From Rhizobium sp. (GTDB lineage Bacteria > Pseudomonadota > Gammaproteobacteria > Burkholderiales > Thiobacillaceae), in contig JAIBEL010000048.1 in the NCBI GenBank assembly GCA_019459285.1, positions 62,001 through 126,000 of the forward strand: a stretch of 64,000 bases of DNA, read 5' to 3'. Both the position numbers and the translations under genes were made by a program. The notes under the pieces were generated by a model that was given only the letters and a program-made list of their open reading frames with translations, had not been told where the DNA came from and searched no databases. Positions 1-4,642 of this stretch are shown piece after piece (position 1 is the first letter of the stretch; every line of letters starts with the position of its first letter).

Positions 1-484
1 CCTCAAGCTGCATGGCGCGCCCCCGCCGGTCCGCATCGTCCAGCAGCTGATCGGCCCGATCCAGCGCCGCGCGCATCTTTTCCGGTGCCGCACTGTCGAT
101 ATGCAGGATGATGCGATTGGGATCGGCTTCGCGTGCGAGGCTGACCGTCCGATACCCATCCGGAACCGCGGCAGGCTGTGTGACGCCTGCCTGCCACGCC
201 AGTCCCCGCAAAGCCCAGCCACTGCTCAAGCCAACGAGCAGAACGAGGCAGCCGAATGCGCAGCGTTGCATCAACTGCCGGCGATGAACGGGCGGCCGGG
301 CGTCGATGACCGGCGGCTCGGCGTACGCCAGCTTGACCATGCTGCGCAGGCTGCGCAACGCACAAATGCGTTGCGCCAACACCTGGTCTTGTTGCATCCG
401 CGCGATCAGGGTTTCGCTTTCGGCCACATCGAGTTCGCCATCGATGAACGCATGCAGAATCTCATCCGAAACAGCGGATTTCAT
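1..484 (-). CDS. Anti-sigma factor with membrane anchor and DsrE-like periplasmic part (partial, runs off left edge)
   Basis: The frame is open from an ATG at 484 to base 1, giving 161 residues and no stop. The ATG overlaps the stop of the sigma gene (ATGA), the usual sigma/anti-sigma coupling. Residues 1-55 look like a cytoplasmic anti-sigma domain (motif LHAFIDGELD), but without the Cys/His zinc ligands of ZAS proteins. Residues about 75-94 form one hydrophobic helix. From about residue 124 the sequence (RIILHID, then an amphipathic helix) resembles the start of the DsrE-like fold of the exported protein at 1176-1628 (KVVYHIN, same spacing). I infer a cytoplasmic sigma-binding domain, a membrane segment and a periplasmic sulfur-relay-like sensor. 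The C-terminus is not visible, so the DsrE assignment rests on one strand and one helix. Confidence 0.75.
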   Translation of the reverse strand, partial: MKSAVSDEILHAFIDGELDVAESETLIARMQQDQVLAQRICALRSLRSMVKLAYAEPPVIDARPPVHRRQLMQRCAFGCLVLLVGLSSGWALRGLAWQAGVTQPAAVPDGYRTVSLAREADPNRIILHIDSAAPEKMRAALDRADQLLDDADRRGRAMQLE

Positions 485-1035
485 TTGACCCTCCTCAACT
501 GTGGCTGGGCCGCCGATTGTTGCATCGCAGGCCCCAGCAGACTTTTCAGGGATGCGCGCGCGCGCGACAGGCGGCTCATCACCGTACCGACCGGGATGTC
601 CAGGATCCCGGCCACTTCGGCATAACTGAATTCTTCCAGGTCGACCAGCGTCAGAACCTGACGCTGCCCCAGCGGCAGGCGTTCCACGGCCTTGCGTACG
701 CAGGCGATCACCTGCTCGCGATCGCAACAGGCATCGGGCGTGTCTGCCGTGGATTCCAGTTCGTCCTGCCAGTCCTCGACATCGTCGAAGTCGCGCCGGC
801 TGCGCAAGTGATCGAGCCAGCAGTGATTCATGATCGACACCATCCATGCCTTCAGGGACGACTCGTCGCGCAACTGAGCACGCCGCGTCCAGCCCTTGGA
901 GAGGGCTTCCTGAACCAGATCGTCCGCCAGCGTGGCGTCATGGCACCAGGCAAAGGCAATTCGGTAGAGCACCGGGCGCAAGGCTTCGATACCGGGGCGA
1001 GGCGGACCAAAAAAAAGACGGCTGAGCATGATCAT
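481..1035 (-). CDS. ECF-type RNA polymerase sigma factor
   Basis: This 184-residue protein has the two-domain ECF layout. Region 2 is at about residues 16-80 (LADDLVQEAL, then SSLKAWMVSIMNHCWLDHLR). Region 4 is at about 115-165 (LPLGQRQVLTLVDLEEFSYA, then GILDIPVGTVMSRLSRAR), the helix-turn-helix that reads the -35 element. It would direct RNA polymerase to a small regulon, held inactive by the overlapping anti-sigma gene. A GGAATA-N16-CGTC promoter lies directly upstream, so the gene probably activates itself. The predicted transcript start falls almost on the ATG, so the mRNA may be leaderless. A second in-frame ATG lies two codons in. The stimulus is unknown; the DsrE-like partners hint at sulfur or redox chemistry. 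Confidence 0.9.
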   Translation of the reverse strand: MIMLSRLFFGPPRPGIEALRPVLYRIAFAWCHDATLADDLVQEALSKGWTRRAQLRDESSLKAWMVSIMNHCWLDHLRSRRDFDDVEDWQDELESTADTPDACCDREQVIACVRKAVERLPLGQRQVLTLVDLEEFSYAEVAGILDIPVGTVMSRLSRARASLKSLLGPAMQQSAAQPQLRRVK

Positions 1036-1043
1036 GTCCGGTT

Positions 1044-1069
1044 GACGGGAAAGATAGTCCTTTTATTCC
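1044..1069 (-). promoter_or_regulatory. ECF-type promoter of the sigma/anti-sigma operon
   Basis: Read on the minus strand, GGAATA (1069-1064) is followed by exactly 16 bases and then CGTC (1047-1044), the classic layout of ECF promoters. It matches the divergent promoter at 1092-1117 in both elements and spacing, which supports autoregulation. A start site 6-8 bases beyond the -10 would fall at about 1035-1037, on the annotated ATG. Confidence 0.7.
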
Positions 1070-1091: not shown

Positions 1092-1120
1092 GGAATAAGC
1101 GTTCCAGTAGGTCCGTCCTA
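1092..1120 (+). promoter_or_regulatory. ECF-type promoter of the exported DsrE-like gene
   Basis: GGAATA (1092-1097), a 16-base spacer and CGTC (1114-1117) form an ECF-type promoter identical in elements and spacing to the one driving the divergent sigma gene. The predicted start near 1124 leaves a leader of about 50 bases before the ATG at 1176. Confidence 0.7.
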
Positions 1121-1175: not shown

Positions 1176-1628
1176 ATGACCCGCACTCTCACCCCGCTGC
1201 TTGCCGCTCTGTTTCTGGCTTGCGCTCCGATGGCTCACGCCGCTCCCCCGGCTGAAGCCGCCGCCCCAGCCGCCTCCGACGAGGCAAAAGTCGTCTACCA
1301 CATCAATGATGCCTCCGTCGCCCGTGCCGCCATGAACAATATCAACAACGAGCTCAACGCCAGCCCGACCGACAAGATCGTCGTGGTGGCTCACGGCAAG
1401 GGTATCGATTTCCTGCTCAACGACGCCAAGGATGACAAGGGTGCTTTTGAATCCCAAGTTGCCGCACTGAAGAATCGCGGCGTCGATTTCCGCGTCTGCA
1501 ACAACACCCTCATGTCCCGCAAACTGGGCCCTGACGCGGTCATCATGGAAGCCAAGGTGGTACCGTCCGGCGTGGCTGAGCTTGCCCGTTTGCAGGCCAA
1601 GGAAGGTTACGTCTACATCAAGCCCTGA
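1176..1628 (+). CDS. Exported DsrE-like family protein
   Basis: This 150-residue protein starts with a signal peptide (about residues 1-22, ending AHA) and a short Ala/Pro-rich linker. The mature part fits the DsrE/DsrF-like alpha/beta fold: strand KVVYHIN (38-44), helix, strand KIVVVAHG (67-74), then VDFRVCNNTL with a single cysteine, C108, at the position where DsrE-like proteins carry a reactive cysteine. DsrE relatives bind or relay sulfane sulfur or act as small-molecule sensors; the substrate here is unknown. AGGAGA precedes the ATG at good spacing. It diverges from the sigma/anti-sigma pair and shares its promoter type. FLAC in the signal peptide is a poor lipobox, so a soluble periplasmic protein is more likely than a lipoprotein. 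Confidence 0.85.
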   Translation: MTRTLTPLLAALFLACAPMAHAAPPAEAAAPAASDEAKVVYHINDASVARAAMNNINNELNASPTDKIVVVAHGKGIDFLLNDAKDDKGAFESQVAALKNRGVDFRVCNNTLMSRKLGPDAVIMEAKVVPSGVAELARLQAKEGYVYIKP

Positions 1629-4132: not shown

Positions 4133-4642
4133 ATGAAATCGCTTCTGATGGGGTTGGCAAGCCTGTTCCTGGGTCTGTCCACCTCGGTGCTTGCTGCGGG
4201 AACGTGGGTGGCCACGCCCTATGCGCCCGCCAAGGTCGTGTTCGAGTTCTATCTGGACCACCCGCAGAAAATCGGCAGTGCGCTCTATTGGGTGCGTTCG
4301 CTGATGAACCCCTTGCTGGAGGCGCCTTACAACTATTCGCCCGAAGATCTGAGCCTCGTCGTCGTGATCCACGGCAACGAGATCGTGACCGTGGCGAAAA
4401 AGAACGAGGCGAAGTACCAGGATGCGGTGGATCGCATGCGCTACTACGCCGGACTCGGGGTGAAGTTCAAGGTGTGCGGACAGGCGGCCGCGGATTTCGG
4501 CTACAAGGTGGAGGATTTCCAGGACTTCATCGAAGTCGTGCCCAATGCCATCACCGAGCTGGCACACTGGCAACAGCAAGGCTATGCGCTGATCGTGCCC
4601 AAGGTCATGGAAAAGACGATCGACATCGAGTCGATCCGCTAG
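4133..4642 (+). CDS. Exported DsrE-like family protein (second paralogue)
   Basis: A 169-residue protein with a signal peptide (about 1-22, VLAAG). The mature part has a DsrE-like arrangement: strand KVVFEFYL, strand LSLVVVIHGNEI, and VKFKVCGQAAADFGY with C115 at the same place as C108 of the protein at 1176. It is longer, with an insertion around residues 50-70 and a different tail. AAGGAGAG precedes the ATG. It lies 33 bases after rsgA, ahead of a convergent CBS protein. No GGAATA-N16-CGTC promoter lies upstream, so it is probably not in the ECF regulon. The function is unknown beyond a likely periplasmic sulfur or redox role. Confidence 0.75.
   Translation: MKSLLMGLASLFLGLSTSVLAAGTWVATPYAPAKVVFEFYLDHPQKIGSALYWVRSLMNPLLEAPYNYSPEDLSLVVVIHGNEIVTVAKKNEAKYQDAVDRMRYYAGLGVKFKVCGQAAADFGYKVEDFQDFIEVVPNAITELAHWQQQGYALIVPKVMEKTIDIESIR

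Follow-up and report, generated by a model that had tools for sequence, protein, structure and literature searches.

The gene at the left edge of the window, by which the whole analysed stretch of 64,000 nucleotides is meant (G000:C29:62001-126000), encodes a membrane anti-sigma factor in which a zinc-free anti-sigma domain is followed by one membrane helix and a complete DsrE-like fold. Its gene and domain order are those of an ECF sigma factor with a membrane anti-sigma factor, and the novelty lies in the DsrE-like half outside the membrane. The fold, the single conserved cysteine, the gene order and the shared promoter sequences are computed results, and in the genomes sampled the fusion is confined to genomes with soxB or dsrA. 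With somewhat better than even confidence, these features are best explained by a sulfur-responsive pair of ECF sigma factor and transmembrane anti-sigma factor, which would use a DsrE-like sensor and control a sulfur-trafficking regulon.

Gene, domains and fold of the anti-sigma factor

The minus strand from base 484 to base 1 of the window holds the first two thirds of the anti-sigma gene, and its last 242 bases (L002:9759-10000) belong to the sequence left of base 1, designated locus L002 (Table 1). The end of the sigma gene overlaps the start codon of the anti-sigma gene. Past the anti-sigma gene, at a distance of about 1.8 kb, is a gene for a trypsin-plus-PDZ protease of the DegQ/DegS type; by eye, its neighbours are Rieske, cytochrome b and cytochrome c1 genes, an arrangement common in related bacteria, and the proximity may therefore be coincidental. 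Two features of class I ECF anti-sigma factors are present, namely a sigma-adjacent gene and an N-terminal helical domain followed by a membrane helix.

Table 1. Positions of the sigma/anti-sigma operon, its promoters and associated genes
Feature	Position	Strand	Basis
Anti-sigma factor with extracytoplasmic DsrE-like domain, 241 aa	window 1..484, start codon at 484; in full L002:9759-10484	-	fold, homology, conserved Cys
ECF sigma factor (Sigma70_r2, Sigma70_r4_2)	window 481..1035	-	Pfam
Predicted ECF promoter GGAATA-N16-CGTC, facing sigma/anti-sigma	window 1044..1069	-	motif search
Predicted ECF promoter GGAATA-N16-CGTC, facing exported DsrE	window 1092..1117	+	motif search
Exported DsrE-family protein (PF02635), divergent partner gene, conserved Cys108	window 1176..1628	+	Pfam, 47.3 bits
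Second exported DsrE-family protein (PF02635)	window 4133-4642	+	Pfam, 57 bits
DUF255/Thioredox_DsbH protein, gene start overlapping the anti-sigma stop codon	L002:7970-9775, left of window	-	Pfam
dsrA, first gene	G000:C27:46618-47871		
dsrA, second gene	G000:C59:26345-27598		

The fold was modelled with AlphaFold2 on a 98%-identical ortholog from Thiobacillus thioparus, from an alignment of 29 sequences (mean pLDDT 81.8, pTM 0.56). Block means of pLDDT were 89-96 at residues 121-240 and 47-81 at residues 41-120; modelled helices lie within residues 7-54, a long helix spans residues 68-97, and residues 112-240 form a five-strand alpha/beta fold. When this model was compared with the PDB by Foldseek, the first five ranks were all DsrE-like (1l1s, 8uja, 2pd2, 1jx7 and 3mc3; four of the five with E<=0.001), with E=9.5e-8 and a TM score of 0.89 on the target for 1l1s and a target TM of 0.85 for 2pd2. 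Residues 124-240 also match 1l1s by phmmer (E=5e-6) and by profile search (E=5e-10), and among solved structures the closest is MTH1491 (1l1s) rather than DsrE proper. In Pfam, the window's protein stays below the gathering score of the DsrE family and ortholog L125 (= G186) passes it with 26.7 bits (cut-off 22.7); other anti-sigma frames score 24.6 (G045) and 22.7, at the cut-off (G184), or fall short (G043, G178 and G227). An RseA_N match is missing from the window's protein at E<=1.

The preliminary description named a gene end soon after residue 161 as a refutation and a full DsrE fold with a conserved cysteine in the complete protein as support; the gene does continue, for another 242 bases to the left of base 1, and the fold and the cysteine were both found. 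Its statement that the zinc ligands of ZAS anti-sigma factors are absent extends to the family, in which the motif HxxxCxxC occurs in none of 102 full-length fusion proteins, and a zinc-binding anti-sigma factor was rejected on this count. The alignment that it had drawn with the exported DsrE-family protein 700 bases away was not reproduced by BLASTP, but the DsrE-like domain aligns profile to profile with the exported family (prob 98.2, E=6e-14). Given the phmmer, profile and Foldseek matches and the invariance of Cys198, chance similarity to DsrE was rejected. The second exported DsrE protein of the window aligns with the anti-sigma factor by BLASTP (E=2e-8). The two exported DsrE genes are the only PF02635 matches on contig C29, and a DsrE pair is located on C27.

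Family distribution and the conserved cysteine

A scan of named genomes yielded 41 loci, labelled Thiobacillus (26), Hydrogenophilales (8), Proteobacteria or Gammaproteobacteria only (5), Sulfuriferula (1) and Rhodocyclaceae (1). Alignment A1 comprises 35 of these loci and the window's protein, and alignment A2 has 29 rows; the close set (n=40) consists of 39 named loci and the window's own, with the partial L047 and the frameshifted L049 excluded. Of 369 genomes of the class Gammaproteobacteria in the GTDB sense, 85 were matched by the profile at E<=1e-5; the match is full-length in 66 genomes, from 41 families, and 62 proteins in 60 regions of 54 of these 66 make up the distant set. At the phylum level, 18 of 398 genomes match at E<=1e-10, three of them in full length, the window's own included. 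The hits in the other 15 are mainly C-terminal and were read as stand-alone DsrE proteins, not fusions; neither an anti-sigma half nor a nearby sigma gene was found in 18 stand-alone DsrE loci from 13 of those 15 genomes.

Cys198 is the sole cysteine beyond the membrane helix, and exactly one cysteine is found there in all 102 proteins (62 distant and 40 close), ten of the distant ones having a single cysteine in the whole protein. Although the distant proteins have a median pairwise identity of only 32% (minimum 21%), Cys198 and Trp236 are invariant in all 62, and His128 is kept in 60 and Asn165 in 57; Cys198 is likewise present in all 36 rows of alignment A1. It aligns with Cys108 of the exported DsrE partner and with cysteines of 1l1s and 2pd2, and 81 of 83 partner proteins contain one cysteine within their last 112 residues. 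Since Cys198 has no second cysteine to pair with on its side of the membrane, the outer part of the protein cannot form a disulfide within itself, and the chemistry plausible for Cys198 is formation of a sulfur adduct or bonding with a second protein. To our knowledge, sulfur carriage is not established for every DsrE-fold protein. In DsrEFH of A. vinosum, sulfur is bound specifically at DsrE-Cys78, which becomes persulfurated, according to the accessible part of PMC3397948, and archaeal DsrE3A treated with tetrathionate forms a Cys-S-thiosulfonate, as given in the available text of PMC4175335.

The fusion is distributed along with genes of sulfur oxidation. soxB was found in 64 of the 66 genomes with a full-length fusion and in 83 of the 303 without (61 and 82 if listed above-cut-off matches only are counted), dsrA in 52 and 65, and at least one of the two in all 66 compared with 95 of 303 (369 genomes, kinship uncorrected); because the genomes are related, Fisher values overstate the significance of these differences. 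The soxB set contains 147 genomes, of which 143 were above the cut-off among the matches listed and four (G042, G290, G131 and G099) were added by E-value, the match of G099 being a 342-aa frame marked below the cut-off; the dsrA set contains 117 genomes at E<=1e-60, 112 of them above the cut-off. The window's own genome carries two dsrA genes and gave no match for soxB or SoxY, and the absence of SoxY is weak because the SoxY control had no match in any genome.

Gene neighbourhood and shared promoters

The sigma gene lies directly upstream of the anti-sigma gene in 101 of 102 loci, L085 being the exception. An exported DsrE gene, either divergent from the sigma gene or directly downstream, is present in 38 of 40 close loci, and an adjacent one in 39 of 62 distant loci, or 42 if the downstream window is widened for overlapping genes. 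Control loci were 20 of 25 hits to the N-terminal part of the profile only, from 19 genomes, with two overlapping regions and several that end with the contig; a sigma gene accompanies all 20 and an exported DsrE gene none, within flanks of up to 5 kb (Fisher 2e-8 for distant fusion against control loci, a significance overstated by the relatedness of the genomes). A simple hydropathy test detected a hydrophobic leader in 80 of 83 partner DsrE proteins. Two fused anti-sigma genes occur in tandem at L094 and L102, about 1.6 kb from start to start, each with a sigma gene and a DsrE gene of its own. Five control anti-sigma factors (L154, L156, L157, L161 and L163) have in common another extracytoplasmic domain with HPVEV, FMY and FYW motifs, for which no Pfam family was found in the three scanned (L154, L156 and L157).

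The adjacency of the partner gene in most loci, often with a matching promoter, would also suit a mechanism in which the DsrE-like domain is a docking site. The exported DsrE protein would then associate with it in a hetero-oligomer and, like RseB on RseA, keep proteases away from the anti-sigma factor until a sulfur load titrates the partner off. DsrEFH of A. vinosum offers a precedent as a hetero-oligomer of DsrE-family proteins (accessible part of PMC3397948). However, an adjacent DsrE gene is missing from 20 of the 62 distant loci, and docking alone does not require the cysteine that all 62 proteins retain; this mechanism is therefore considered unlikely.

The DUF255 thioredoxin-like gene, directly downstream of the anti-sigma gene in this genome, is found near 34 of 40 close loci but 0 of 62 distant loci, and was for this reason rejected as a core component. 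The same counts bear on the proposal that the protein is a periplasmic thiol-redox sensor, in which oxidizing conditions would lead Cys198 into a mixed disulfide with the partner cysteine or a small thiol and sulfane sulfur would play no part. The one cysteine beyond the membrane helix of the anti-sigma factor and the one in the last 112 residues of nearly all partners would permit such a bond, and a thioredoxin-like neighbour would be in keeping with it, but that neighbour is missing from the whole distant set and the distribution of the fusion tracks soxB and dsrA, which makes a pure redox sensor decidedly improbable.

A porin-like gene comes next on the divergent side in half of the distant set (31 of 62 entries, representing 29 separate genes), mostly 20-160 bp behind the DsrE gene; the one porin-like protein scanned just passed Porin_O_P with 21.0 bits (cut-off 20.9). 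An example of this family is L091:8445-10058, behind an exported DsrE gene, and no porin-like gene was found next to the DsrE gene of this window. In G156 and G267, which belong to the same genus, and in G167, soxB is situated 2.1-2.5 kb from the sigma/anti-sigma operon.

Promoters were counted in 38 close and 32 distant loci in which the sigma gene and a divergent DsrE gene are both present. GGAATA-N16-CGTC faces the sigma gene in 38 of the close and 18 of the distant loci, and the exported DsrE gene in 37 and 11, respectively; mononucleotide shuffles of the distant set contain it in 0.01 loci on average. When the distant loci were searched for spaced words without a seed, GGAA-N18-CGTC and its shifted forms came out on top, in 18 of 32 loci, compared with at most five in 30 shuffled sets. 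Eleven of the 32 distant loci are without a canonical promoter in either direction (spacing 15 or 16), and nine of these contain AATA-N16-CATC, a pattern spotted post hoc.

In the window's own genome, GGAATAA-N15-CGTC occurs exactly five times, twice at the home locus and once inside an ORF; the remaining two copies precede exported DsrE genes, by 53 bp on C6 and by about 250 bp on C46. A looser pattern gave 27 hits compared with 7 for a reversed-pattern control, and 38 compared with 33 when one mismatch was allowed. In these own-genome searches, no motif was found before the second exported DsrE gene of the window, and soxB was not found as a promoter target in this genome. Eighteen other genomes, chosen for a motif at the home locus, yielded 62 hits, 26 at home and 36 off-home, compared with 42 for the reversed control, so that most off-home hits are attributable to chance and only the identity of a gene speaks for it as a target. 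The contexts, which covered 35 of the 36 off-home hits, place the motif before soxB in two genomes (at 112 bp, and at about 147 bp to the likely start) and before one exported DsrE gene, one Sulf_transp gene and one DUF302 gene. Other genes behind off-home hits, for example an rpoD-like gene in G194, were taken as chance, and a soxY gene beside the motif in L192 was set aside because the motif is oriented away from it. In four genomes from two families, related TPR proteins, with no function assigned and a leader recognized by eye, follow the motif at about 100 bp or less (L188:2045-2848 and its counterparts in L191, L193 and L197). The DsrE partner gene, the promoters held in common and the association with soxB and dsrA lend independent support to the link to sulfur, for which the preliminary description had only the fold to go on.

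Proposed sulfur-responsive switch and its relation to known systems

In the favoured sulfur-responsive model, the zinc-free anti-sigma domain would bind the sigma factor and hold it at the membrane, and the extracytoplasmic DsrE-like domain would serve as the sensor, with Cys198 as a sulfur carrier that may be loaded as a persulfide or thiosulfonate. The sulfur could originate from a periplasmic sulfur compound or be transferred from the exported DsrE partner. Sulfur on Cys198 may then expose the anti-sigma factor to stepwise proteolysis, or loosen its grip otherwise, and the sigma factor would be freed; for the assumption of proteolysis, RseA serves as the analogy (accessible part of PMC8103513). 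Transcription by the freed sigma factor would start at both divergent promoters: from one the sigma/anti-sigma operon would be read, and from the other the exported DsrE gene, in many relatives along with a Porin_O_P-like porin gene. Further exported DsrE genes may be under its control as well, as may soxB and a gene for sulfur transport in certain lineages. By handing sulfur on, the exported DsrE protein would close a feedback loop. It is very unlikely that the DsrE-like domain is instead a sensor-dead module that places a protease site in an RseA-type envelope-stress switch with DsrE genes incidentally among its targets, for although control anti-sigma factors resemble the protein in its N-terminal half, with RseA_N passed by three of ten scanned, and the DegQ/DegS-type protease gene is near, the conservation of Cys198, Trp236, His128 and Asn165 at such low identity and the presence of soxB and/or dsrA in all 66 fusion genomes speak against it.

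The proposed sulfur-responsive pair resembles the class I systems of RseA, RskA and RsiW in its sigma/anti-sigma operon, zinc-free helical N-terminus, one membrane helix and predicted autoregulation; what sets it apart from them is the DsrE-like fold, with its one invariant cysteine, on the outer side of the membrane. DsrE is absent from the main text, as far as accessible, of a survey of class I anti-sigma factors (PMC7406223). The DsrE fold with a conserved cysteine is shared with the sulfurtransferases DsrEFH and TusBCD; these consist of three adjacent cytoplasmic subunits, whereas the fold described here follows a membrane helix, is thus membrane-tethered and predicted to lie outside the cytoplasm, and is fused to an anti-sigma domain. 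RpoE1 and RpoE4 of Sinorhizobium meliloti (ECF26) likewise work with COG5662-type anti-sigma factors and control sulfur oxidation genes, but there the signal is sulfite, the genes and the host are others, and no DsrE domain is described in the accessible part of PMC3511301. Sulfur-responsive control of sulfur oxidation genes is also exerted by the ArsR-type sulfane-sulfur repressors SoxR and sHdrR; according to the available text of PMC10451225, these are repressors, SoxR having cysteines that form a sulfur bridge, whereas one extracytoplasmic cysteine and a sigma factor are found here. The same text states that thiosulfate oxidation begins in the periplasm.

No description of a DsrE-bearing anti-sigma factor was found in the literature searched, which leaves out most subscription journals and does not prove absence from print, and none is given in the accessible parts of PMC10512742, PMC7406223, PMC3511301, PMC8103513, PMC5744179, PMC4949241 and PMC7787665; nor was an experiment on any member of the fusion family found in the literature searched.

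For the wider biology of these bacteria, our judgement is evenly balanced on whether sulfur-lithotrophic Gammaproteobacteria (GTDB sense) possess a widespread, undescribed class of anti-sigma factors that senses periplasmic sulfane sulfur through persulfidation of a single cysteine in a sulfur-carrier domain tethered to the membrane, possibly loaded by a soluble carrier under the control of the same sigma factor, such that sulfur traffic would be the signal that sets the expression of periplasmic sulfur oxidation. The combination of one cysteine with a defined promoter makes the idea directly testable in culturable Thiobacillus. An outer sulfur-handling fold with an unchanging cysteine suggests that genes may be switched directly by sulfur beyond the cell membrane, and a transmembrane anti-sigma factor with an outer sulfur-carrier fold, in 41 families of the class sampled, would allow periplasmic sulfur to be sensed.
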